Assembly: GCA_020724265.1 (NCBI GenBank)
Contig: DYHH01000008.1
Coordinates: 62,001-126,000 of the forward strand
Direction of reading: 5' to 3'
DNA length: 64,000 bases
DNA from: Melioribacter roseus
GTDB taxonomy: Bacteria; Bacteroidota; Ignavibacteria; Ignavibacteriales; Melioribacteraceae
Shown here: piece by piece, positions 3,860 through 31,735 of the stretch
How positions within the stretch are numbered: the first letter of the stretch is position 1
Layout: every line of letters begins with the position of its first letter
Position numbers and translations under genes: made by a program
The notes under the pieces: generated by a model
What the model was told of the DNA's origin: nothing
What the model saw: the letters and a program-made list of their open reading frames with translations, nothing else
The model's database searches: none

Positions 3860-5992
3860 ATGCTAAATATCTTTAATTATCATTTTAGTCTTAACCTTAA
3901 CCCGTATTTAATTTTGCTTTTCATTGCGGTTACTGTTTTATATATAGTATTTATCTATAAATTTACTATTCCACAGACATCTAAATTAAATAGAGTCATT
4001 CTTATATCCATTCGAACAATAAATTTAACTCTGCTTTTTATACTTCTGTTCGAGCCGAAACTAACAGTGATTGATATAGAAGAAGAAAAACCTATTATTC
4101 CAATATTTATCGATAACTCATCTTCAATTCTATATCACGACGCATCAGTGAAAGAAAGAATAAACGAATTATTTGAAAATTCCCCAACTTCGAAAGATGT
4201 TAATTTCGAATATTATTTCTTTGATGCAGAACCAAAGAAAATCTCGCTTGATTCAATTAAAAGCTTAAGCTTTGAGGGGGGATTAACTAATTTTGAAAAA
4301 GTCTTTAATAAACTTAAGGCTGATGAAAGATATATCACTTCTGCAATAATTTTATCTGACGGAATTGTGAATGACGGAAGCAGTTCAATTTATCAAGTCG
4401 AAGAATTGAATTTCCCTGTTTATACAATCGGTATCGGTGATACAACAAAAACTACCGATGCCTATGTAAAAAATATTTTAAATAACCGATTTATTTATAA
4501 AGAAACTCCCACGGTAATTGCCGCTGAAATTTCCAACCAAAATTTGGCAAATGAAGAAGCGGTGGTTTCTTTCAAAGAGAACAATCGAGTAATTGAATCA
4601 AAACAAATAAAATTAAATAGCAGCGGTATAAACAGAGTTACATTCAATTATTACCCCGAAGAAGCGGGTAAACAATTAATTTCCGTTGAAATAAATCGAT
4701 TAGAAAATGAAACAAATTTTGAAAATAACATTCAGTCCAAATTCATTGATATAATTGAAAACAAGTTAAAACTGCTGGTAATCGGAGGTTCACCTTCGGC
4801 AGATTTCTCTGCAGTTTATCAATCCCTAAATGCAATTGATGAATTTAGTGTTTCGAAATATCTTCAAATCAGTTCAACCGAATTTATTGGTGATAATTTA
4901 AACCAAAAACTTGATAGTGCAGAGGTAATTGTTTTAGTTAATTTCCCCTATAAAAATACGCCGATAAATATTATCCAACGAGTAAGGGAAAAAATTGAAA
5001 GAAGTAATACACCTTTTTTTAATCTAATCGGATCAGACATACAATTACTAAATTTAAGTCAAGTACAGGAACTGCTGCCGTTTAATCAATCCGGAAATTA
5101 TAACGAGCTTTATTTAGCTCAGCCGAGTTTCTCCGAACAGCATGCAAGTATGATTTTAGGCGAAGAGTTAAGACGATTCAACAAACTTGAGCTTCCACCC
5201 GTTGCTTATCACAATGTAGGCTTCCGGGTTAAACCCGGGTCGCAGGTAATTGCAACATCAAGAATAAATAACATCTCAACCGATTTCCCGATGATTGTAA
5301 GTCAAAACACTCCGGCTTATAGATCAATTACACTAATCGGCAGCAATGTTTGGCGATGGAGAACAACTTCGGAAAGAAGAGAAATTAATTTCTTTGATCA
5401 GCTCATTTATAATTTTATTCAATGGTTAAGAGTTGCAGATAATCAAAGAAAATTTTTTGTTGAAACATCTAAAGACATTTATGCGGTTGGTGAAACAATT
5501 GAGTTCATAGGTGAAATCTATGATGATAAACTTGAGCCGGTAAGAGATGCAAGCATAATCGTTAATATAGAAAACTCGGAGAACTCGTTTTCATTAAAGT
5601 TAGAACATGAAGATAATGGTATTTATAAAGGTCAACTTAATTTACCATACAAAGGAGATTATTCATTTAAAGCCGAAGCGGAAATTGGCGGAATAAAATC
5701 TAAAACATACAACGGAAAGTTTAATATCGGACAACTTGACTTGGAAAAATTTGAAACTGTTATGCAAGAAAATTATTTGGAAATGATAGCATCTTTAACC
5801 GGAGGTGCTTATTATTATATAGATAATTCATTTGGTATGTTACGGGATATTGAGACAATTTATCGTAATAATATAAAAAGAACAACATTAACATCAACAT
5901 ATGATCCACTTTCTTTCGAATCACTATTGTTGATAATAATTTTGCTTCTAACAGTTGAGTGGTTTATTAGAAAGAAAGAGGGTATGTTATAA
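3860..5992 (+). CDS. membrane protein with VWA-like domain
   Basis: A 710-residue membrane protein resembling the large VWA-type proteins common in Bacteroidota. Two transmembrane helices lie near the N-terminus (about residues 12-34 and 44-62) and one near the C-terminus (about 690-706). Between them is a VWA-like fold with a MIDAS-type beginning, PIFIDNSSSI (D-x-S-x-S), and a second strand IILSDGIVNDG. A CARDB-like or invasin-like beta domain lies near residues 210-290, and a glutamine amidotransferase-like region near 300-470. The molecular function is unknown. Such proteins usually have their soluble domains in the periplasm. ATG at 3860 is preferred over a TTG one codon earlier; no strong ribosome binding site is visible. 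It follows surE after 22 bases. Confidence 0.65.
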   Translation: MLNIFNYHFSLNLNPYLILLFIAVTVLYIVFIYKFTIPQTSKLNRVILISIRTINLTLLFILLFEPKLTVIDIEEEKPIIPIFIDNSSSILYHDASVKERINELFENSPTSKDVNFEYYFFDAEPKKISLDSIKSLSFEGGLTNFEKVFNKLKADERYITSAIILSDGIVNDGSSSIYQVEELNFPVYTIGIGDTTKTTDAYVKNILNNRFIYKETPTVIAAEISNQNLANEEAVVSFKENNRVIESKQIKLNSSGINRVTFNYYPEEAGKQLISVEINRLENETNFENNIQSKFIDIIENKLKLLVIGGSPSADFSAVYQSLNAIDEFSVSKYLQISSTEFIGDNLNQKLDSAEVIVLVNFPYKNTPINIIQRVREKIERSNTPFFNLIGSDIQLLNLSQVQELLPFNQSGNYNELYLAQPSFSEQHASMILGEELRRFNKLELPPVAYHNVGFRVKPGSQVIATSRINNISTDFPMIVSQNTPAYRSITLIGSNVWRWRTTSERREINFFDQLIYNFIQWLRVADNQRKFFVETSKDIYAVGETIEFIGEIYDDKLEPVRDASIIVNIENSENSFSLKLEHEDNGIYKGQLNLPYKGDYSFKAEAEIGGIKSKTYNGKFNIGQLDLEKFETVMQENYLEMIASLTGGAYYYIDNSFGMLRDIETIYRNNIKRTTLTSTYDPLSFESLLLIIILLLTVEWFIRKKEGML

Positions 5993-22999: not shown

Positions 23000-23012
23000 T
23001 GAAAATAAAGTA

Positions 23013-23377
23013 AAATAGTAATTTGTGGTCTAATAAAGGTAAAAGAAGAAAGAAAACTATTATTATAACTTGTCAACTTTTTTCAGGACAACACAGGAGA
23101 AACTAAATCCTAAAATCTAATTTAGAAATCCTAAACAAATTAGAAGCACAAAACTCCAAATAATAAACTAATTAGTTTGTTTGGAACATTTGAATTTATT
23201 GTTTATGATTTGTTTAGAAATTAGAGTTTTGACATTAGTATTTTCCTGGCAGCACTGAAAATCAGACCTATAGCATTACCATCTTTTTATTTTATAAGAA
23301 TTTAACTTCTCCAATTCTGTAAACGTATAAAACAGGGAAATAGTAATTTGCGGTCTAATAAAGGCAAAAGAAGAAAA
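23013..23377. repeat. pair of 40-bp direct repeats, 325 bp apart
   Basis: The 40 bases at 23013-23052 recur at 23338-23377 with only a few differences, mostly C/T changes; both contain GGTCTAATAAAGG and AAAAGAAGAAA. The gene-free stretch 22961-23590 between dapF and the toxin-antitoxin locus therefore contains a local duplication and no ORF that I can support. The repeats could be traces of insertion or slippage at the island border. Confidence 0.6.
23096..23250. repeat. AT-rich imperfect palindrome of about 150 bp
   Basis: The left part contains TCTAATTTAGAAATCCTAAAC and CACAAAACTCC. The right part contains ATTTGTTTAGAAATTAGAG and AGTTTTGAC, so the halves are roughly inverted copies around TTAGTTTGTTTGGAACATTT. 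From memory, similar long Gram-negative intergenic palindromes with TTTGTTTAGAATTTAG-type arms occur in many genomes. No coding potential was seen. It could be a mobile or REP-like element. Confidence 0.4.
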
Positions 23378-23555
23378 TACAATTGCCGGGATATATCAAT
23401 TAATTCTTTTTTACGGAGAGCTTTTTATAAATTTATTAAGTTGCGAAAATCTACACCCGCTTGCTATCCTCCGAAGCTGAATTGTAGCGAAGGAGGAGCC
23501 AGCCATCTGTAAGGCGGATTAAAGATGTTAGCCTTTGAAATTTATTTTCTTGATA

Positions 23556-23575
23556 ATATGTCATATCTGACATAT
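23556..23575. promoter_or_regulatory. palindromic operator candidate of the toxin-antitoxin locus
   Basis: Perfect inverted repeat ATATGTCA-TATC-TGACATAT. A second perfect palindrome, TATCATGATA, lies at 23581-23590. Both are just upstream of the HigB-like remnant, where HigA-type antitoxins bind to repress their operon. No sequence match to a known operator is claimed. Confidence 0.5.
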
Positions 23576-23591
23576 CTTTATATCATGATAA

Positions 23592-23744
23592 TTCAAGATA
23601 AACCTCTCATCTGGTTGCGTGGATATTAGAGTTGATGATGATGCAACAATAATTCTTAAAGTATTTATGAAGAAAACTCAACAGACGCCTAAAAATATTA
23701 TAGATGTATGTAAAAAGAGAATAAAGGAATATGACAACGAATAG
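23592..23744 (+). pseudogene. HigB/Gp49-like toxin remnant
   Basis: The frame reads from the stop at 23589 to a TAG at 23742-23744. It contains LSSGCVDIRVDDDATIILK and then VFMKKTQQTPKNIIDVCKKR, ending IKEYDNE. The last 30 residues match the C-terminus of HigB/RelE-type toxins of the phage Gp49 family (consensus around FVKKTQKTP...A..R..EY). The usual 100-120 residue protein is reduced to about 50. The beta strands between the IRVDD and IILK segments and the whole N-terminus are missing, and there is no normal start. It overlaps the antitoxin start by 14 bases, as in intact pairs. Loss of toxin function is inferred from the deletion. Confidence 0.65.
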
Positions 23745-24048
23745 TCAGAAACAAAAAAACTTAGAGAAAAAAGGTTGGAAAATAGGTTCAACCGCAGAGT
23801 TTCTCGGTTTATCGGAAGAAGAATCTTCATACATAGAATTAAAATTAAAACTAGGCACTAATTTAAGAAAGTTGCGAACGGAGAAAAAATTAACACAAGT
23901 TGAATTGGCAAAAATTATTAAATCAAGCCAATCGCGAGTAGCAAAACTTGAAATAGGTGATCCTTCTGTTTCACTTGATCTCATTATTAGATCCTTATTA
24001 GCTCTTGGCACATCAAACAAAGAAATTGCTCGAGCTATCTCCTCTTAA
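23731..24048 (+). CDS. HigA-type antitoxin / XRE-family regulator
   Basis: A 105-residue protein with an N-terminal arm (about 1-38) typical of Gp49-partner antitoxins (GSTAEFLGLSEEESSYIELK). An XRE helix-turn-helix follows at about 45-95 (LRKLRTEKKLTQVELAKIIKSSQSRVAKLE). In this family it neutralises the HigB toxin and represses the operon. Here the toxin frame is deleted, so the gene may persist as an orphan antitoxin or a stray regulator. It is the only plus-strand gene of the island and sits directly before the first attC-like site, in the opposite direction to the cassette genes. Confidence 0.82.
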   Translation: MTTNSQKQKNLEKKGWKIGSTAEFLGLSEEESSYIELKLKLGTNLRKLRTEKKLTQVELAKIIKSSQSRVAKLEIGDPSVSLDLIIRSLLALGTSNKEIARAISS

Positions 24049-24061
24049 TATTTTATGAAAA

Positions 24062-24157
24062 GGCTAGCGGCGTTGCCGATAAGCGATGTACCAACTTGCC
24101 CGTCCTCCTACTTCCGTTAGGTCCCGGTGTTTTCTAGAGCGGATTTGCTGATTAGGT
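24062..24157 (-). other. attC-like site (last of the array)
   Basis: Read on the minus strand: R''-like ACCTAAT begins 6 bases after the stop of the lipoprotein gene. A second ACCTAAC lies further in. A hairpin-forming core follows, and the end is CGCTTATCGGCAACGCCGCTAGCC, comparable to the L'-R' end of known attC sites except GCTAGCC in place of GTTRRRY. Length is 96 bp. Judged by eye only. Confidence 0.45.
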
Positions 24158-24163
24158 GATTTA

Positions 24164-24826
24164 CTATTTTAATATTACACCCCATTCTGTCACTACAAAT
24201 CCATTACGATCGAAATATGGAATTGGTTGTGGAGGTGATATCATTTGTTCACTGTTAAATCCCTCAATTACATAAAATAGTCTTAGAATATTATCTGGAT
24301 AAATTGAAAATTTTAGTTGAATAATTTTTTCTATCACTGCCGAGTATTGTGGAAAAACAGCATAGTATTCATAGTCAGTTAATATTGGTATCCAATATTC
24401 TATAAAATCATTTTTTTCACTTTCATTAAAACCAGTTGCAAGCAGATTATTTGTGAAAAAATTAAAAAGAGAATCTCTATTTATTGACCATCCATAATCA
24501 TATTGATAAACCTCCGGGCACTGAGCTTCATAATAAAGATAATCATACTCTTCATTTATTTTCCCGGACGGATCAACTTTGACATACCATCCATCATAAT
24601 AGTACGGTTCTGACTCGACAATACTACCACCTAAAGGAAATTCTATCTTTACAGAGAGCGAACAAACGGATGTAGGATAAAGATAAAGGTTAGGTTTTCT
24701 TACAACAGGTCCGCCGGTAGTATCTGGGATTGTTATTTCTGGTTCGGTAGAGTTTTTACACCCGGATGAAAATAGCAGCGTAACTGCTATAATAACCATT
24801 GTGAGCAACAGCAATATCTTTTTCAT
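24164..24826 (-). CDS. cassette-borne lipoprotein with YLYP-type domain
   Basis: A 220-residue lipoprotein. The signal peptide ends in the lipobox SSGC (Cys about residue 23). A short Pro/Thr linker follows and then a domain opening with RKPNLYLYPTSVCSLSVKI. A KP-x-(I/L)YLYP start followed by DGWYVKVDPSGKI and YDYLYYEAQ is a pattern I recognise from uncharacterised secreted proteins of many bacteria. The molecular function is unknown. It lies between two attC-like segments, with its stop 6 bases from one and its start 21 bases from the other, as for a gene cassette. Confidence 0.65.
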   Translation of the reverse strand: MKKILLLLTMVIIAVTLLFSSGCKNSTEPEITIPDTTGGPVVRKPNLYLYPTSVCSLSVKIEFPLGGSIVESEPYYYDGWYVKVDPSGKINEEYDYLYYEAQCPEVYQYDYGWSINRDSLFNFFTNNLLATGFNESEKNDFIEYWIPILTDYEYYAVFPQYSAVIEKIIQLKFSIYPDNILRLFYVIEGFNSEQMISPPQPIPYFDRNGFVVTEWGVILK

Positions 24827-24847
24827 TTTATCCTCACTTTATTATTG

Positions 24848-24965
24848 ACATTAAGGCGTCGCAAATAACCCGTTTATCCCGAAGTAGATTTACGAGGCTG
24901 CCAAAAAACAACAATTTTACTAAATAACGCATGGTAAAATTACCAAGAGCTGGTCATGTAGCTAT
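24848..24965 (-). other. weak attC-like segment
   Basis: The intergenic region between the DUF3795 and YLYP genes. On the minus strand it ends GGTTATTTGCGACGCCTTAATGT, which aligns with the right ends of the better attC-like sites, but the GTTRRRY box is degenerate. A GGTAAAATTACC palindrome lies inside. The left box is not convincing. Confidence 0.3.
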
Positions 24966-24978
24966 AATAAAAACGTAA

Positions 24979-25416
24979 TTAATCTGTTCTATAATTTTGA
25001 ATAACCCTCTTTTCACCACACTCCAAACATATTTCTCTATGAACACAAATAATGTTTCCACATTTTGAACAAGCCCATTTCTGTTTTTCTTTCAGAGTAA
25101 ATTTTCGTATACCTATTTCTTTTATAGAGTTTAGATTCTCGATCATACTCATTCCATATTTTGCTTTATAGCGTATATCAAGATTCTTAATTCTTTTACA
25201 AGGAAATTTATGACAAGTAAAACAGTACTTTGATTTACCACTTGATAATAATTCACAGTTTTTTATTGAACAGTTGATACAATGATTCGGCTTGTTTAGA
25301 CTAGTTGATTGGCAACCATCGCATTTATTTTTTAAACGATGATAACCAAGACAGAGACCACAGTTCATCCCACAAGGCGCTATCAGTGAAGATGTTAAAT
25401 TAATATTTATGTGCAA
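24979..25416 (-). CDS. DUF3795 family cysteine-rich protein (cassette gene)
   Basis: A 145-residue protein opening with the DUF3795 signature LIAPCGMNCGLCLGY and followed by further pairs (KCDGCQ, HCINCSIKNCEL, YCFTCHKFPCKR). A final zinc-ribbon-like part (WACSKCGNIICVHREICLECG) closes it. The Cys pattern implies metal binding, zinc or iron-sulfur; the role is unknown. The start is TTG at 25416, with no ATG available before the signature. It lies 56 bases after the right box of the attC-like site at 25473. Confidence 0.78.
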   Translation of the reverse strand: MHININLTSSLIAPCGMNCGLCLGYHRLKNKCDGCQSTSLNKPNHCINCSIKNCELLSSGKSKYCFTCHKFPCKRIKNLDIRYKAKYGMSMIENLNSIKEIGIRKFTLKEKQKWACSKCGNIICVHREICLECGEKRVIQNYRTD

Positions 25417-25472
25417 ACTTAAGACCCTTATCCTTGTTTATTGTTTCATTGATTTTAGATTCATATTAAGCC

Positions 25473-25657
25473 ACATAACGTTGCTGCTAAGCCGCAGCCC
25501 AGAACAACAATGCAGCTTTGAAAAACGAACGCCAATAATTATTTATAAATTTATTTTGTTCACTCCTATCAAAGAACAACTAACTTTTACAACTTTCATT
25601 TTTAATTACACAAATACCGAACAGTCTAAACCAGTCGGCTGGAAGAACGGATTAGGT
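25473..25657 (-). other. attC-like site overlapping the dehydrogenase stop
   Basis: Minus strand: R''-like ACCTAAT (25657-25651) overlaps the TAA of the dehydrogenase gene. L''-like CCAGCCGACTGG (25642-25631) can pair with the L' side GGGCTGCGGCTT (25500-25489), leaving an unpaired base. The end is GCGGCTTAGCAGCAACGTTATGT, with R' GTTATGT at 25479-25473. The last part closely resembles the right end of the known aadA attC. The 185-bp length is long but within the range of some chromosomal sites. Confidence 0.6.
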
Positions 25658-26599
25658 TTTACCATTATGCTCAATAGTTATCACTACATTTCCTTTTTTA
25701 TGTCCTTTGTCAACATATCTATGAGCTTCTACAATTTCTTCCATTGGATAGCGTCTGTCAATCACAGTTCTCAGCTTTCCTGCTTCGCAAAGGTCTTTGA
25801 GAAAGATTAGGTCTTTTACCTTTAACTTGATGTTGCCGGACATTGTAAGAACGTTTAGATAGTGTCCTGACTTGGAGAGGGATTTTTTACGTTTTGAAGA
25901 TTCAATTTTCCCTACAGCATCATAAATAACGTCGTAAGTGTCACGGTTCTGTGTAAAATCTTCTTTCGAGTAATCAATTACTTTATCCGCACCGAGGGAT
26001 TTCACCAATTCCATGTTTGAGGAACTGCATACTGCAGTAACTTCTGCACCATAGTATTTAGCAATCTGTATTGCATAAGTACCTACGCTACCGGAAGCTC
26101 CATAGATTAATACTTTTTGACCTTTCCTGATATTTGCTTTTCTAAGATGAATCAATGCAGTTATTCCGCCGTTAGAAACCGGAGCGGCTTCTTCGTGTGT
26201 CATATTAGCCGGTTTGATTGCTAGAATACCGTCCTCAGGAATGCAGCAATACTGTGCATAAGTACCAAATCTGAATTCGGTGGATGCAAAAACGGGATCG
26301 CCTACTTTAAAGAGCGTAACATCTTTACCGATTGCTTCAATTTCTCCGGAGAGTTCCATCCCGAGTATTTTATTTCTCGGTCCGGTAAAGCCGACAATTA
26401 TCCGCATAATCGGCTTGAAGAAGAAATCTTTGACCGGTCCTAAACCGGGTTCAATGCGCCGGATTTTGGTATCGCCAATATGCGCTGTTGTAGCTAATAT
26501 TTTTATGAGTACTTCATTCGGTTTAGGAAAAGGTTTTTCAACTTCCTTAATCTGAAGAACCTCGGGTGGACCATATTTTGTGCATATAACAGCTTTCAT
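25652..26599 (-). CDS. medium-chain alcohol dehydrogenase / quinone oxidoreductase-like (cassette gene)
   Basis: A 315-residue NAD(P)-dependent MDR-superfamily protein. The N-terminal GroES-like domain has [22 protein letters not shown]. The Rossmann domain has [25 protein letters not shown], and the end is [20 protein letters not shown]. The cysteine/histidine zinc ligands of classical alcohol dehydrogenases are not apparent, so it belongs with zinc-independent quinone/enone reductases. The substrate is unknown. It is flanked by attC-like segments on both sides: its stop lies inside one and its start is 27 bases from the R' box GTTAGGT of the other. Confidence 0.88.
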
Positions 26600-26626
26600 A
26601 AGTTACCTTTTTGACTGTTTTGAAAA

Positions 26627-26801
26627 ACCTAACGGCGAGGCAACTAAAGCGCTGCCCAGGACAACAATGCAGCACTGAAAAACCTAAGCCGATAATTATT
26701 AAAAAACCTTTCTTATTAGAATTACTTTGAACAAGATACTTAAAACGGAGCTACAAACTTAATAAATTACAAAGGCCGATAGCGAAAGAAGCAGTCAGCT
26801 T
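26627..26801 (-). other. attC-like site with consensus GTTAGGT box
   Basis: Minus strand: L''-like AAGCTGACTGC (26801-26791) can pair with GGGCAGCGCTTT (26657-26646). The right box GTTAGGT (26633-26627) fits GTTRRRY. The central part shares a long run with the site at 25473 (ACAACAATGCAGC, GATAATTATT-like). A left R'' box was not found; an IS110 fragment starts 43 bases further out and may have replaced it. Confidence 0.55.
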
Positions 26802-26843
26802 GAACCACTTGATATTTCCAATAAATAAAAAACGAATTAGTTT

Positions 26844-26985
26844 CCTGACCAACTACTTTTGCTTGGAGGTATCATATGTTTTACACCGGTATTGATCTTC
26901 ACAAGGTCACTTCTTTCTTAACTACTCTTGACTCTTCCGGTAAAATTATCAAACAAGAAAATATTGAGAATATCTTTTGGTCAGG
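26844..26985 (+). mobile_element. IS110-family remnant bounded by 9-bp inverted repeats
   Basis: CCTGACCAA (26844-26852) and TTGGTCAGG (26977-26985) are perfect inverted copies enclosing 142 bp. Inside are a ribosome binding site (GGAGG) and the first 30-odd codons of an IS110-type transposase. IS110-family elements, especially the IS1111 group, are known to insert at integron attC sites, which fits the neighbouring attC-like segment. Only the 5' part of an element survives, or this is a short derivative. Confidence 0.55.
26876..26976 (+). pseudogene. IS110-family transposase, N-terminal fragment
   Basis: ATG at 26876 begins MFYTGIDLHKVTSFLTTLD, then SSGKIIKQENIENIF. This is the RuvC-like N-terminal strand of DEDD transposases of IS110 (GID-x-HK with the first catalytic Asp). 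The homologous reading stops near 26976 and the frame then runs into unrelated sequence to a stop at 27076, so over 90 percent of a normal 300-400 residue transposase is missing. It is non-functional. Confidence 0.7.
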
Positions 26986-27018
26986 TTGTCAAACTTGTGC
27001 GCCGAAGGTGCTTCTAAA

Positions 27019-27873
27019 CTATTTGGATAATTTTAAATTTCCGTTCTTATCAAATTCCTTTTTACTGATTAATTGACCATTAGCATATTGCCACTCAGAT
27101 TTAGGAATTTTGTTGGGATAGTACTTCTTCACATATATTCGCTTACCCATAGAATATTTCCATTCCTCTTTTATTACACCACTTTCGTAATATTTTAGCA
27201 TCAATCCATTTCGTTCACCATCGATATAAGAAACTGACATCTTTATTTTTCCATTTTCGTGATACTCTAAATAATCACCATCATTTATATAATTTTTGTT
27301 CTTCCATTCTGCTTTTAAGGAACCACCTTCATAATATGATTTTCCAAATTCTTTATCATTTATTGAAGCAACTGTATTAGATGAAGGATGATATTCAATT
27401 ACTTTCATTCCAAAGGAGCCATTTTCTGAATCTTTGAATTCCTCAATAAACTCTTCTTTAAGCAGACCACCATTGATACTATAACTTTTACGAATACCAA
27501 CCTTCTCACCTTGGTGGTATTCATTTTCACTAATAATTGTATAAGTCAAATTACCTTCACCATCAAAGCCCTCATAGAATAATCTTTCCTTTCCATCAAC
27601 ATAATATTCGTTATTCTCACCAAGTGAAATAAATGAAAATGCTCTCCGTAATTTTCCACTTTTATAATATTCGCGATAGTATCCTCGATTACCTTCATTT
27701 ATAAATTCAATTTCTATTCGACTATACTTTAACCAGTCGACAACATTTTCAGAATGAGTGATATTGTCTTTGATATAGAGATTTCGGGAAGCATAAAATT
27801 CAAATTCATCATTTAATTCAATTGGCAAGTCACAATAAATTATAATATCTAATTCCCTAGTTTCTCTGCTCAT
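27019..27873 (-). CDS. MORN-variant repeat protein, YwqK-like (cassette gene)
   Basis: A 284-residue protein with repeated MORN-variant units of about 22 residues (YREYYKSGKLRRAFSF, YLEYHENGKIKMSVSYIDG, LKYYESGVIKEEWKY, KKYYPNKIPKSEWQYANG). These are the repeats found in YwqK-type proteins, sometimes called antitoxins of unclear function. No signal peptide or membrane helix is present. The 5' 70 residues are less repetitive. It begins 83 bases after the GTTAGAT box of the attC-like site at 27957. On its 3' side an IS110 remnant lies before the next site. Confidence 0.75.
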   Translation of the reverse strand: MSRETRELDIIIYCDLPIELNDEFEFYASRNLYIKDNITHSENVVDWLKYSRIEIEFINEGNRGYYREYYKSGKLRRAFSFISLGENNEYYVDGKERLFYEGFDGEGNLTYTIISENEYHQGEKVGIRKSYSINGGLLKEEFIEEFKDSENGSFGMKVIEYHPSSNTVASINDKEFGKSYYEGGSLKAEWKNKNYINDGDYLEYHENGKIKMSVSYIDGERNGLMLKYYESGVIKEEWKYSMGKRIYVKKYYPNKIPKSEWQYANGQLISKKEFDKNGNLKLSK

Positions 27874-27956
27874 CTAATTTCACCTAAATTGTTTAATATA
27901 ATTCAACTTTATAATTAATGTAGAAAAACATTTTATTCAGCTTTTTGAATCATAGT

Positions 27957-28122
27957 ATCTAACAGCATGGCTTTTATCCGACCGCCCCATACAGTGATGC
28001 TGGATGGAAAAATCAGAGATTATATTTTTAACAAATTTATTTAATAGAACAACCTAACTTGCAATGCTTACTTTTTCCGTTTAACCCGAAATAATAATGC
28101 CGTACTGAAAACGCGGTTGGGT
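27957..28122 (-). other. attC-like site with both R boxes
   Basis: Minus strand: R'' ACCCAAC (28122-28116) fits RYYYAAC, and R' GTTAGAT (27963-27957) fits GTTRRRY. The segment before R', GGGCGGTCGGATAAAAGCC, is a plausible L' arm, while the L'' arm is weak. It lies between the FxLYD gene (stop 18 bases away) and the MORN gene. Length is 166 bp. Confidence 0.55.
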
Positions 28123-28140
28123 GGAAAAGATGGTTAAGAG

Positions 28141-28911
28141 TTAGTTAAACGATAGATATGCATTTGCTTTGCTTGCTCCTTCACAATTATAAGTACTCCA
28201 TGTTACAACTCTTCGCTGACCAGGGAGGAGGTCATTTCCACCAACAGCATAAGTTTCATCAGTATTTACAATTTTACCAGTATTATCATAATATGTTATT
28301 TTTAGTTTTACAAAACTAACAGGAAGTTGCGCACCATTGTAAATTGTAGCTTTACCTTTAACTCTACCAGGTGAATAAATGGAATAGTCGGATTGCCAAC
28401 TCCAAGATTCAATCAAAACTTTTTCTTTGAGTTCCTCAATAAGGAGGTAAACACCCATATCGGACTTGTTCAATTCAGAATATTTATCGAGAGCGACATA
28501 TTTGTAAGAATCGATTATTTTTGAATCCTCATTAACAATAAAAATAGGATTTCTTTTTAATTCCGCCCCGAATGCATTTTTCGCTGTTCCTTCAACATAG
28601 ACTAAAGTATTTTTATTATTTAATGGGTCGCCTTCACTTTTTGATATTTTCCAACTGTCTATTTTGTAATAGGAATTTTGAGATAACATACTGATATAAA
28701 CATTATCAATAATTTCTGAGAGGATTCTTAAATCATCACTACTTGGATTTTCATTATTCATTACAGTGAGAAACTTTTCAACATTTTTCTTTGCTTCAGA
28801 TTGGAATACTGACCCGATCGAGCCAATATTTAAATAGATTACAATAAGAAAAACTGCGATGGATAAGCCAATAAAAATTCCTTTTAGAATACTTTTCATT
28901 GATGGCCTCAA
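28141..28911 (-). CDS. single-pass membrane protein with FxLYD-like C-terminal domain (cassette gene)
   Basis: A 256-residue protein with one N-terminal membrane helix (about 8-27, ILKGIFIGLSIAVFLIVIYL), an alpha/beta middle, and a C-terminal beta domain. The latter has the FxLYD-type pattern GKATIYNGAQLPVSFVKLKI followed by TYYDNTGKIVNTDE and LLPGQRRVVTW. FxLYD domains are extracellular or periplasmic and of unknown function. The start is 14 bases from the right end of the attC-like segment at 28926, which is very compact. Confidence 0.65.
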   Translation of the reverse strand: MRPSMKSILKGIFIGLSIAVFLIVIYLNIGSIGSVFQSEAKKNVEKFLTVMNNENPSSDDLRILSEIIDNVYISMLSQNSYYKIDSWKISKSEGDPLNNKNTLVYVEGTAKNAFGAELKRNPIFIVNEDSKIIDSYKYVALDKYSELNKSDMGVYLLIEELKEKVLIESWSWQSDYSIYSPGRVKGKATIYNGAQLPVSFVKLKITYYDNTGKIVNTDETYAVGGNDLLPGQRRVVTWSTYNCEGASKANAYLSFN

Positions 28912-28925
28912 AAATATTTCAAAAC

Positions 28926-29118
28926 GCTTAGCGTTGTTTTTAAGTCGCCGCCCAGAAAAGGGATTCGACTTTGAAAATCCAACGCCAATGATTTTCTAAA
29001 TACTTTTTAATTGCTACCTAACAAGATAAGTAATTAACTTTTACAAAATAACTTTTTAACATCATAAATGCTGCAACGTTTAAAGCGGTCGGCTTGAGTC
29101 CACAATTTCAGCGTTGCC
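28926..29118 (-). other. attC-like site with matching L arms
   Basis: Minus strand: L'' AAGCCGACCGC (29095-29085) pairs with L' GGCGGCGACTT (28952-28942) with one unpaired base, the extrahelical-base hallmark of attC. R' is GCTAAGC (28932-28926), one base off GTTRRRY. Its central part resembles the sites at 25473 and 26627. A left box is only suggested by GGCAAC near 29118. Confidence 0.5.
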
Positions 29119-29120
29119 AA

Positions 29121-29205
29121 AATTAACTTTTTTAATGAACCAACTTGGTTTTTTGACCATATTCGCAAACTATTTATGTGGTTCATTAGCAGTTCTTTGT
29201 TATGT
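29121..29205 (-). other. short attC-like site directly after the unknown cassette gene
   Basis: Minus strand: R''-like ACATAAC (29205-29199) begins 7 bases after the gene's stop. Arms TAATGAACCA (29188-29179) and TGGTTCATTA (29142-29133) are perfectly complementary, and the end is GTTAATT (29127-29121). ACATAAC is the exact complement of the GTTATGT box found at 25473 and 30109. Length is 85 bp, adjoining the next attC-like site with no gene between. Confidence 0.5.
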
Positions 29206-29212
29206 GTATGCT

Positions 29213-30091
29213 TTACTTATATTCATCTGTTACAAACCTTTCTGATTCGCTGATGCAAAATATCTTCTTCAAAAAAAATTTTAACAATTTGTTTCTTGCC
29301 AAAATATATGCATCATCTTTCCAATCTGATATTATTAAAAAATGAATTCTCTTGATATTTAAATCATTAAAAAAATATTTTTCTAAAGCTGATTTATGCT
29401 CTTTGATTTGAGTCTGTATCCACACACCTTGGAGTTGTTTAAAATAAGATTTTTCTAAAAATTTATTCTCAACACTTTTAAATAGGTCATTTGGATCAGG
29501 TGCAGGTGGATTAATGCTTTTTACATCTACAACCATATTAGGAGTTATTTCCTCTAAATGAGTTATTAGGCTTTTAATCCTATTTTTAACATCAAAAACA
29601 ATGTTTATTCCTAAAATATTAACTCTCCAATCCAAAGTTTTGTTACCGATGCCATAACCTTGAACCTCAAAATATTTTTTAAATATTTTCCTAACACTTA
29701 TTATTGGTCTCATCTCAAATAATACATCCGAATGTTTCGCTCTATCTTTTAATCTATTTATGTAATCTTGAAACTGATTTGTATTAAGGTTTCTGTAAGC
29801 AACTTTCATTACATTATATAAATTTATTACTAGAAAATGATTTGAAGTCCCAGTCCAAACATATTCCGATTTAAGATTATCTATTGGTAAACCAAAATAA
29901 TATCTCCATTTATTTGTTAGTCTATCTAACCATACTGTAGTATCCTTTAACTCATCTGGCAGCAAGTTTTCAAGAGTATTAGCAAATTCTTTGGTTTGAC
30001 CTTCATTTATTGCTAACTCTTGAAATACGTTAAGTAGCGTTGAATTTTGCCCAATCATTTCTTGAGGAATATTTTCTAATCCGGTTTCCAT
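29213..30091 (-). CDS. unknown cassette protein, possible PD-(D/E)XK nuclease fold
   Basis: The family is not recognised. A 292-residue soluble protein without signal or membrane segments. Residues 154-169 read DWRVNILGINIVFDVK, that is Asp154 then strand then D-V-K at 167-169. This is the spacing and hydrophobic pattern of a PD-(D/E)XK nuclease core. A preceding helix carries Glu126. Such cores occur in restriction and defence nucleases, but many unrelated proteins share the pattern by chance. The start is 17 bases from the GTTATGT box at 30109-30115, and its stop is 7 bases from another attC-like site. A defence role is speculation. Confidence 0.5.
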   Translation of the reverse strand: METGLENIPQEMIGQNSTLLNVFQELAINEGQTKEFANTLENLLPDELKDTTVWLDRLTNKWRYYFGLPIDNLKSEYVWTGTSNHFLVINLYNVMKVAYRNLNTNQFQDYINRLKDRAKHSDVLFEMRPIISVRKIFKKYFEVQGYGIGNKTLDWRVNILGINIVFDVKNRIKSLITHLEEITPNMVVDVKSINPPAPDPNDLFKSVENKFLEKSYFKQLQGVWIQTQIKEHKSALEKYFFNDLNIKRIHFLIISDWKDDAYILARNKLLKFFLKKIFCISESERFVTDEYK

Positions 30092-30108
30092 ATTTTACTA
30101 TTCTAAGC

Positions 30109-30196
30109 ACATAACTATTAATCAAGCTGGCAAATATTAATACTAATCAAGATTTTAGAAATGCATAATCTTCAATTCTAAAATCCAAATGATTAT
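30109..30196 (-). other. possible attC-like right end plus hairpin
   Basis: Minus strand end CCAGCTTGATTAATAGTTATGT, with GTTATGT at 30115-30109. Arms GATTTTAGAA (30151-30160) and TTCTAAAATC (30176-30185) are perfectly complementary, flanked by TAATCA/TGATTA. A left R'' box was not found. It lies immediately before the unknown cassette gene. From here to 30490 no gene could be supported. Confidence 0.4.
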
Positions 30197-30606
30197 GAAC
30201 AAGATTATGGTAACCTACCACTATACTTACTCTTATAAAGATTGAGCGAACAAGTTTACAATTGTTATTTATACAAAAAATGCAGTATAAAAATCTATTA
30301 GGTAGAGATGAGAAGTATGGAAGTACTGAGAATAAACCGATAATAAAAAGTGAGATGAGAAAGTGATCCATAACAACCAAAATTGTTGGAACTAAAAATC
30401 AACTTAAGAAAAAGTTTGCAAATGTACACTAAAAAAATAAGGCAGATTACAGAACCCCACCTACACCAGTTTTTCGTCGGACAGTTCGAAAAAAAACAAC
30501 TACGCCGGTTCAGGCTTCTTATCGAAATTGTTTTAGTTTATAATCAAGAAAAGATTCTTGACCTGTCCTGCGTAGTTCCGTTTTTTGGGGACAATCAATA
30601 TTTTTC

Positions 30607-30852
30607 TTATAATAAATGTTTTCTGAGAAATTCTCGACCAGAATGACTTTTAAGATATTTTTCAAAAGCCAAAGCTTTGGATTTATCTGTAAAAGATATT
30701 GCGTTTTTTAGTTCCCATGGTTTGTAAAGCGATGTGTACGTTGATCCACCCTCGTTATGCTTCGGTACTCGAGTTTTTAGATTTGTTGTGTAACCGATGT
30801 AAATTTTATCTGCGTGATTAATACTTTGGAGTATATAAACGTAGTAATTCAT
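30607..30852 (-). CDS. GIY-YIG domain protein, copy 1
   Basis: An 81-residue single GIY-YIG nuclease-like domain (UPF0213 type). MNYYVYILQS provides the first motif (YVYIL), KIYIGYTTNLKTRV the YIG with the catalytic Arg, and HNEGG follows. The usual Glu of the fold is expected near AFEKYLKSHSGREFL. These small proteins are frequent and often duplicated in Bacteroidota and other phyla; the cellular role is unknown and nuclease activity is unproven. The upstream neighbour is a near-identical copy. The frame is intact. Confidence 0.8.
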   Translation of the reverse strand: MNYYVYILQSINHADKIYIGYTTNLKTRVPKHNEGGSTYTSLYKPWELKNAISFTDKSKALAFEKYLKSHSGREFLRKHLL

Positions 30853-30994
30853 GTTTGGTATCTCCTACCGGCTTCGTTAAAAAACAACTACGCCGGTTCA
30901 GGCTTCTTATCGAAATTGTTTTAGTTTATAGGTCAAGAAAAGATTTTTGACCTGTCAGGCGTAGTTCCGTTTTTTGGAACGATTAATATTCTAC

Positions 30995-31240
30995 TTATAA
31001 TAAATGTTTTCTGAGAAATGCTCGACCAGAATGACTTTTAAGATATTTTTCAAAAGCCAAAGCTTTTGATTTATCTTTAAAAGATATTGCGTTTTTTAGT
31101 TCCCATGGTTTGTAAAGCGATGTGTACGTTGATCCACCCTCGTTATGCTTCGGTACTCGAGTTTTTAGATTTGTTGTGTAACCGATGTAAATTTTATCTG
31201 CGTGATTAATACTTTGGAGTATATAAACGTAGTAATTCAT
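30995..31240 (-). CDS. GIY-YIG domain protein, copy 2
   Basis: An 81-residue protein differing from copy 1 at two residues only: Lys for Thr in SFKDKSKAL, and Ala for Glu in GRAFLRK. Both genes keep the YVYIL and YIGYTTNLKTRV motifs. The low divergence and shared flanks show recent duplication. It is the first gene downstream of ssrA on the minus strand, with one structured terminator-like segment between. Confidence 0.8.
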   Translation of the reverse strand: MNYYVYILQSINHADKIYIGYTTNLKTRVPKHNEGGSTYTSLYKPWELKNAISFKDKSKALAFEKYLKSHSGRAFLRKHLL

Positions 31241-31271
31241 GTTCCTATCTCCTACCGGCTTCGTTAAAAAA

Positions 31272-31366
31272 CAACTACGCCGGTTCAGGCTTCTTACCGA
31301 AATTGTTTTAGTATATAAGTCAAGAAAAGATTCTTGACCTGTCAGGCGTAGTTCCGTTTTTTGGAA
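31272..31366 (-). terminator. structured terminator-like segment downstream of ssrA
   Basis: On the minus strand arms AACTACGCC and GGCGTAGTT enclose an inner hairpin (AGTCAAGAA / TTCTTGACC) and are followed by GTTTTTT. On the plus strand the same arms are followed by CCGTTTTTT, so it could stop transcription both ways. Homologous copies lie at 30497 and 30885. It is a probable ssrA terminator that was duplicated with the GIY-YIG gene. Confidence 0.6.
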
Positions 31367-31377
31367 CGAAGCCTGAG

Positions 31378-31735
31378 TGGAGGTGGCGGGAGTCGAACCC
31401 GCGTCCGAAGCTATTGATCAGAGAACTTCTACACACATAGTCTGTTTATTAAATTTCACTTAAGTAAAGCCGACAGACAGGCAATTACCCAAGCTAACTC
31501 GAAGAAAGTTTTGCCTCACCTATTCGAGTATTCGGTTTGGCTAGCACACCTAAACGGCGTTCATATAAGTCCCGATATGCTGAGACTTAAAGAACGGCTG
31601 CATAAGTTTTGGTTACGCAGCTAAAGCGTAATTATATTCGCCATTTAATATGTTTACCGTCGTTTAACGTGTCTACGGAGAACACGGTGCGCAGTTCAAA
31701 GAACACATAGCCCCGTCGAAGCCAATGTCACCCCC
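31378..31735 (-). ncRNA. ssrA: tmRNA
   Basis: A one-piece tmRNA of about 358 nt. The 5' end GGGGGTGACATTGGCTTCGA and the 3' tRNA-like end GGGTTCGACTCCCGCCACC are both present. The acceptor stem pairs GGGGGTG with CACCTCC (one G-U), discriminator A; CCA is not encoded. The tag reading frame (31642-31613) gives GEYNYALAA then TAA, so the full tag with the charged alanine is AGEYNYALAA, typical of the Bacteroidota GE--YALAA form. tmRNA with SmpB rescues stalled ribosomes and marks the product for proteolysis. smpB is not in the window. The 3' end faces the accessory island, a common integration point. Confidence 0.96.

Follow-up and report, generated by a model that had tools for sequence, protein, structure and literature searches.

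A two-unit array of small GIY-YIG nuclease genes at the 3′ end of ssrA in Melioribacter roseus, probably a minimal homing-type mobile element

The window, i.e., the whole stretch of 64,000 nucleotides of Melioribacter roseus DNA that was analysed, carries on its minus strand the tmRNA gene ssrA and, directly behind it, an array in which a segment of about 120 nt with two hairpins, here termed E, alternates with a small gene for a GIY-YIG domain protein. Read away from ssrA, the order is tmRNA, E3, copy A, E2, copy B and E1 (Table 1). A repeat search retrieved a 274-nt direct repeat (30582-30855 and 30970-31243, 97%) and a 124-nt segment of the E family that is present three times, at 30471-30594 and as the cores of E2 and E3, with spacings of 388 and 387; the first of these copies reaches 65% over its whole length because its outer part differs. 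An earlier note on this DNA had described a period of about 388 bases comprising a structured segment and a GIY-YIG gene, proteins that differ at two of 81 residues, and a further copy at the 3′ side of the tmRNA. All of this was confirmed, with three E segments and two genes, amino acid differences at residues 55 and 74 only, and a third E core that stops 7 bp short of the tmRNA.

Table 1. Features of the ssrA region in the window (positions are those of the window)
Feature	Position	Strand	Basis or remark
ssrA (tmRNA, tag GEYNYALAA), host gene adjoining the element	31377..31735	-	ARAGORN; Rfam RF00023, 180.2 bits
E3, structured leader directly 3′ of tmRNA	31241..31376 (core 31246-31369)	-	Repeat family; fold z -6.45
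GIY-YIG ORF copy A, 81 aa, co-oriented with ssrA	30995..31240	-	Pfam PF01541, 56.4 bits
E2, second E copy	30853..30994 (core 30859-30982)	-	97% to E3
GIY-YIG ORF copy B, 81 aa	30607..30852	-	Two residues differ from copy A
E1, distal end of the array, outer feet missing	30488..30606	-	Alignment with E2 from about 30488
Possible inverted scrap, RNA 3′ end plus E start (CCACCTACACCAGTTTT)	30457..30473	+	15/17 match
Variable DNA from the 23.0-kb position (DAP epimerase gene side) to the array	23005..30487		Not found there in G002

The two units are identical at 374 of 388 aligned bases. Only 3 of 246 positions differ inside the reading frame, one of them silently, as opposed to 11 of 142 outside it (Fisher p 0.0014), so that both copies look maintained as coding sequences. 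Array DNA has three matches in its own genome, all of them within the array. An assembly artefact is an unlikely source of the array because the units differ at 14 of 388 bases, because the array is internal to a 160-kb contig, and because similar arrays occur elsewhere, including one with three copies encoding an identical protein in a single-contig genome of 3.67 Mb (locus L180). At the far end of the array, the possible scrap listed in Table 1 is an inverted near-copy of the junction between an RNA 3′ end and E; its agreement with a composite of the tmRNA/tRNA-Ala 3′ end and the E start was reached by none of 500 shuffles.

Beyond the array, the alignment with G002, the complete genome of a member of the same genus, shows a jump: 8.4 kb lie between the 23.0-kb position and ssrA in the window and about 0.7 kb in G002. 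The six ORFs scanned in this variable region encode a zinc alcohol dehydrogenase, a DUF3795 protein, a MORN-repeat protein and three proteins without family. The earlier note had regarded the array as the border of an island. The length difference agrees with this, whereas no integrase was present among the 21 distinct ORFs scanned from ssrA to 7.1 kb of the window (some short ORFs, and two of 105 and 133 aa in the variable region, lay outside the scan), and an integrase-bearing island was rejected on this ground.

The array protein consists of a single GIY-YIG domain; a Pfam search of its 81 residues returned PF01541 and an overlapping T5orf172 match and no separate DNA-binding module. An AlphaFold2 model based on an alignment of 29 sequences has a mean pLDDT of 93.6. 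The nearest solved structures by sequence are UPF0213 (1zg2, 1ywl) and the GIY-YIG domain of SLX1, and by fold of the predicted model SLX1, its plant relative HIGLE and UPF0213. According to the titles of structure entries, SLX1 acts with SLX4 on branched DNA. Residues Y6, Y18, R28 and E64 (full-protein numbering) are invariant in 29 homologues and H32 is nearly so; we take conserved GIY-YIG residues such as these to be catalytic. Values of dN/dS between 0.04 and 0.16 were obtained for seven of ten close homologue pairs, with dS above 1 in three of the seven and saturated in the remaining three of the ten. NCBIfam and PHROGs contain no family for the protein, and PADLOC gave one weak match (PDC-S14, E 0.0019). 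Carriage by phages or plasmids was rejected, as matches were nearly absent from both record sets (two weak ones in 50,697 phage records and one in 72,556 plasmid records). Foldseek comparison with viral models retrieved GIY-YIG domains of giant viruses and phages (best E 1.8e-5), which we take as likeness of the predicted fold only. The gene resides between E copies behind an RNA gene and not in a protein gene, an intron or an intein.

Folding of E is better than that of shuffled sequences in five stretches (z -2.8 to -6.5), and when 18 E segments were aligned, 8 of 18 predicted pairs had two-sided changes in one sequence or more. The start of E is no more than a few bases away from the RNA 3′ end both in the window and in the 16 loci that were aligned. 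The description of E as a "structured bidirectional terminator" in the earlier note holds for the structure and is not supported for the terminator: a consensus scan found no terminator-like site in the ssrA direction inside the E segments, the sole such site lying on the plus strand within E2 (30964-30980), and an intrinsic terminator was rejected since a GC hairpin followed by a T run is lacking in the ssrA direction. At gathering scores, Rfam recognized only the tmRNA in the window, and E has no match there to a known RNA family. The exact E hairpin pattern has three matches in its own genome, all in the array. The look of an array of ORFs and hairpins led us to consider integron attC sites, a reading that was set aside because E is confined to a single locus and the units are near-identical. 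E also resembles REP/RAYT systems, in which small hairpin repeats flank a small nuclease gene. RAYTs, however, are Y1 transposases, while the array protein belongs to the GIY-YIG type and the two Y1_Tnp places of the genome are situated on other contigs; this reading was rejected because exact matches to the E hairpins are not dispersed but restricted to ssrA.

PF01541 is found at eight places in the genome, namely two long frames (614 and 641 aa), the two array genes and four other stand-alone genes. All six stand-alone genes are located behind RNA genes: the four outside the array start about 30-50 bp 3′ of the genes for tRNA-Lys(ttt), tRNA-Gly(tcc), tRNA-Cys(gca) and tRNA-Ser(gct), on the same strand. 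Under uniform placement, the chance that five of five loci lie within 150 bp downstream of an RNA gene on the same strand is about 1e-15, a value that assumes 48 RNA genes (47 tRNA matches in the sister genome plus tmRNA), the genome's own tRNAs being uncounted. When GTDB genomes were scanned with the array protein, 282 related places emerged, of which the best 80 were analysed. An RNA gene is present upstream on the same strand within 700 bp in 69 of these 80 (tmRNA in 16 cases, tRNA in 53), and the median distance between gene and RNA is 142 bp; eight of the others are at a contig edge within 500 bp, and three (L073, L091 and L119) are without linkage, no RNA gene being recognized upstream. 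The figure of 69/80 is inflated by one shared locus, as 40 of the 69 linked loci have the upstream flank of a single Bradyrhizobium-type locus, 37 of them also its downstream flank, and five of the eight contig-end loci carry Bradyrhizobium titles. Without the Bradyrhizobium-type records linkage amounts to 29/35, which is the fairer figure. The titles in this set name Ignavibacteria, Bacteroidetes, Cloacimonadota, Dadabacteria, Marinimicrobia, Omnitrophota, Lentisphaerae and others. Among control ORFs from the regions of the phylum survey described below, 2 of 310 have a same-strand RNA gene within 600 bp upstream. By its neighbourhood, ssrA is one of many RNA-gene targets, as we interpret them, of such nuclease genes.

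The phylum survey began with a search of 148 genomes for PF01541; from the top of the resulting list, which was cut by E-value, 80 regions were taken, non-randomly and after neighbours had been merged. These regions contain 100 GIY-YIG ORFs that were divided into two groups by their likeness to RNA-linked seeds, with the split at a score of 64; since the group profile was seeded with RNA-linked genes, a high score depends on linkage, the linkage of the surveyed genes itself being independent. The high-scoring tRNA group comprises 36 ORFs, 27 of them at least 600 bp from the contig start. Nineteen of these 27 genes lie behind a tRNA within 600 bp, four (three in L180, one in L239) between a 5′ tRNA fragment and an intact tRNA directly downstream, and one abuts an RNase P RNA match (L177, 157.8 bits). 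Another, in L205, is found 764 bp behind a tRNA with a further GIY-YIG gene in between, and the last two are inside protein genes (L219 and L237). In the low-scoring group of 64, a single gene is within 600 bp of an RNA gene, the second copy at tRNA-Ser in L214. Direct repeats of at least 30 bits within 450 bp flank 29 of 39 high-group and 40 of 58 low-group genes and 9 of 310 controls; for this comparison the groups were split at a score of 60, 97 of the 100 genes had flanks of sufficient length, and the counts include tandem units of the gene itself.

A phylogenetic tree was calculated from 77 columns for 142 proteins, with 10 of the 40 Bradyrhizobium-type rows kept; 72 of its 134 inner branches are open, and the near-copies that it contains, among them three identical L180 rows, favour clustering. 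When all labels are considered, palindrome-flanked and unassigned genes included, the target changes 39 times on the tree compared to a mean of 81.5 after shuffling (0 of 200 shuffles as low). Six changes versus 17.2 were counted for tmRNA as well as for Ala, and two versus 4.0 for Lys as well as for Pro (0/500 each). One starred clade of 41 contains 18 of 18 tmRNA rows and 17 of 18 Ala rows, and Lys, Cys, Asn, Met, Asp and Leu genes from across genomes form starred clades, some of them with unassigned members. The Ser rows are unclustered (four changes for four rows), the same applies to Gly and Val, and Asp, Leu, Lys, Pro and Arg each have one row apart. These patterns suggest that the RNA target is partly heritable, with many though not all targets clustering. 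On this tree, the nuclease of the array falls into a clade whose genes are mostly found behind tmRNA or tRNA-Ala; this clade is part of a wider group present at many other tRNA genes. The tmRNA has an alanine-tRNA-like end, and the union of tmRNA and tRNA-Ala in one clade fits this likeness.

Two architectures can be distinguished. In the tRNA-splitting type, part of the same tRNA is found again as a remnant behind the nuclease gene; it scores above shuffles in 17 of 20 survey cases and for all four tRNA-linked genes of the genome. Of the 23 significant remnants overall, 22 start 8-115 bases past the nuclease domain and the other starts 405 bases past it; L169 is counted twice among the 23 (two copies of one array), and the remnant of L055 is a complete second tRNA-Ala. 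Comparison of L004, L005 and L008 with G002 revealed that the native 3′ flank adjoins the remnant and that a foreign spacer and the nuclease gene come after the intact tRNA; in the case of L006, each of the two flanks is similar to the native one. On the basis of the flanks in L004, L005 and L008, the element seems to have supplied a new tRNA 3′ part, thereby displacing the native one. The array in the window represents the other type, the E type, which is devoid of a target remnant (0/13 for tmRNA; 2/53 for tRNA, one of the two being the complete second tRNA-Ala in L055). E is present again behind the gene in 10 of the 31 E-type loci tested, six of these copies starting at E position 9-14, and is lacking there in 21; in L056, L059 and L070 a further unit starts before the contig ends. 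As a target remnant is missing and most of the tested loci have no E behind the gene, insertion is documented less fully for the E type than for the tRNA-splitting type.

Remnants of this kind raise the question of whether the loci are scars of islands once integrated by a tyrosine recombinase, with the GIY-YIG genes as leftover cargo and the tRNA remnants as attR copies. The 3′ ends of ssrA and tRNA genes are common attachment sites, an intact tRNA with a 3′ remnant resembles attL and attR, 8.4 kb of variable DNA lie behind ssrA, and ssrA is reported to be an integration site in Dehalococcoides (PMC3146451). We nevertheless consider this origin highly unlikely, given that the scanned ORFs include no integrase, that the element measures only a few hundred bases, that remnants begin so close behind the nuclease domain, that many targets cluster on the nuclease tree and that the protein is nearly absent from phages and plasmids.

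Occurrence behind ssrA was compared among relatives. A full-length tmRNA match was present in 49 genomes; 30 loci were taken and 29, including our own, were resolved (L051 was left out). A GIY-YIG gene follows ssrA in four of the 29 (the window, L027, L037 and the decayed L042) and an E-like scrap alone in one (L040), while neither gene nor E, the latter judged by eye over the first 75 bases, is present in 24. Genome G055 (L014) has a tandem of two units, of which the second is cut off by the contig end. In G002, ssrA is followed by a decayed E without the nuclease gene, all four tRNA sites that are occupied in our genome are empty, and, within the tRNA and ssrA regions examined, a gene split over two frames is found behind tRNA-Ser(cga). 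Broken or decayed copies include that of L286 and, in genome G048 (L013), one in which a stop comes directly after the start codon. Judged from these sequences, presence, absence, copy number and integrity vary within the genus and within the order. The proposal of the earlier note that the unit inserts or amplifies next to ssrA is therefore supported by comparison, with variable copy number and a position that is not fixed among the relatives compared. A fixed position, which the earlier note had named as speaking against its proposal, was encountered in the Bradyrhizobium-type records only, in which presence, copy number and integrity are invariant (40/40 by the upstream and 37 by the downstream flank). 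These loci (L067-L132) contain a GIY-YIG gene linked to tRNA-Ala(GGC) at one conserved site and under strong purifying selection, which suggests a stabilised or useful copy.

Fixation combined with purifying selection would also fit a host function. Accordingly, one may ask whether the gene has been domesticated altogether, encoding a GIY-YIG nuclease that is co-transcribed with ssrA or a tRNA, serves in RNA or DNA maintenance, e.g., at hairpins or stalled forks, and has undergone ordinary duplications. The low dN/dS values in 7/10 pairs would be expected in this case, and so would the shared strand of gene and RNA gene (an RNA gene on the opposite strand is also nearby only in L115 of the 80 loci, in a count that targeted upstream same-strand genes). 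A resident gene is, however, difficult to reconcile with the 24 of 29 ssrA loci that have neither gene nor E, with empty tRNA sites within one genus, with the broken or decayed copies in L013, L042 and L286, and with different target RNAs in sister clades. We regard this alternative as unlikely.

The sequences compared here show that the element occurs sporadically, that sites without it exist, that copies decay or form arrays, and that many targets cluster on the tree. We propose that the array is probably a two-unit tandem of a minimal chromosomal element of the homing type at the ssrA 3′ end. One unit consists of an E leader of about 120 nt with two hairpins and a single-domain GIY-YIG gene in the direction of ssrA. 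The nuclease would break copies of its RNA gene that are free of the element, and repair by recombination, in which the tRNA or E could act as homology arms, would then copy the element in, i.e., by intronless homing. In the tRNA-splitting relatives, the tRNA would thereby be rebuilt from the 3′ part of the element, and the native 3′ part would be left as the remnant. Tandem copies may arise through unequal recombination between the flanking E repeats, perhaps set off by these breaks, as has been reported for phage SegB. Insertion and amplification are what we infer from comparison; that the predicted nuclease itself drives the move is a conjecture.

Copy number alone could also have changed by passive tandem duplication, through slippage or recombination between E palindromes and without involvement of the nuclease. 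Palindromes promote replication slippage, and E2 and E3, 97% alike over 124 bases, offer ample homology. This process would explain how many units there are and not how E and the gene arrived at ssrA, nor does it account for linkage to RNA genes across many phyla, and we deem it rather improbable.

Several observations weaken the homing reading or oppose its simplest form, a copy mechanism of the SegB type. A protein of 81 residues without separate DNA-binding module is small for a sequence-specific homing enzyme. In L004, L005 and L008 the rebuilt tRNA does not differ in sequence from the one at the empty site in G002, and self-immunity can therefore not rest on the tRNA sequence alone. The fixed Bradyrhizobium-type locus likewise opposes a simple copy model. 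Tentatively, and with less confidence than we place in homing as such, we put forward that these minimal chromosomal elements possess an SLX1-like nuclease that may recognise the hairpin-forming DNA of RNA genes and of its own E hairpins instead of an extended sequence, the RNA gene serving as target and homology arm at once; a structure-directed cut as made by SLX1 would fit hairpin-rich targets. If this were true, each insertion would rebuild a working RNA gene and leave a partial copy, tRNA, tmRNA and RNase P RNA genes would be targets without the need for an integrase, a transposase or an intron, and each nuclease clade would, for the most part, stay with a single kind of RNA gene irrespective of phylum.

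The nearest experimental precedent for the proposed amplification is SegB of phages T4 and T6, likewise a GIY-YIG gene among tRNA genes; in phage T6, SegB beside tRNA-Tyr is reported to drive homologous recombination by which a 718-bp unit of tRNA and segB is amplified in tandem (PMC13096335). Expression of segB is reported to be hairpin-regulated (PMC2988022). The array differs from SegB in being chromosomal and nearly absent from phage records, in encoding a single domain of 81 aa, in that units of its type carry E or a tRNA 3′ part, and in that targets include tmRNA. Enzymes of the T4 Seg family combine the GIY-YIG domain with a C-terminal DNA-binding module. The latter is absent from the array protein by Pfam, and there is no PHROG match, so that by analogy the enzyme may be said to work like a Seg enzyme, not to be one. 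With free-standing GIY-YIG homing genes, the array shares a domain with conserved residues, a location outside introns and the existence of element-free alleles of the same site. Among the literature matches listed, judged by titles and the beginnings of abstracts, no paper deals with GIY-YIG genes that lie at tRNA or tmRNA genes of bacterial chromosomes; subscription papers and preprints were mostly outside the scope of this search. Bacterial genomes commonly contain small GIY-YIG genes, for which annotation usually stops at the fold. Should one large group of them prove to be homing-type elements directed at tRNA and tmRNA genes, one would understand why they lie where they do and form tandem arrays, why fragments of tRNAs occur next to intact ones, and in part why the 3′ flank of ssrA is variable; such elements would also constitute an integrase-free use of tRNA genes as landing sites.

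Some further observations concern single loci of the survey. In L177 (about 4479-5201, minus strand), the gene of the tRNA group abuts the 5′ end of the RNase P RNA match and is bracketed by an inverted repeat. The gene in L219 (4076-5250) lies in the 3′ part of a frameshifted gene, directly after an LLGH stretch, and the fragments of this host gene match integron integrase. For L237, a Y1 transposase as the host gene was not confirmed, as no Pfam family was assigned.

Palindromes recur in several contexts. In L004 (1744-1810), L005 (1809-1875), L006 (1739-1790), L008 (1755-1937), L180 and L239, a perfect palindrome replaces or interrupts the anticodon arm or the D loop of the tRNA fragment, one example being ATCCCGAC-TT-GTCGGGAT, and the second E copy of L014 has a 22-bp palindrome in a hairpin loop. 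It looks as if palindromes insert at hairpin loops. The second group of stand-alone GIY-YIG genes is situated between palindromic repeats and without a tRNA in the ten regions inspected (L188, L200, L211, L236, L192, L222 and others), with TGTCATTCCCGC..GCGGGAATCC and GTCTCGACTGCGCTCGACGTGACA as examples of such repeats. One palindrome of genome G019, rare or absent in six other genomes tried, has four of its five exact matches within 1 kb of the GIY-YIG genes of that genome.
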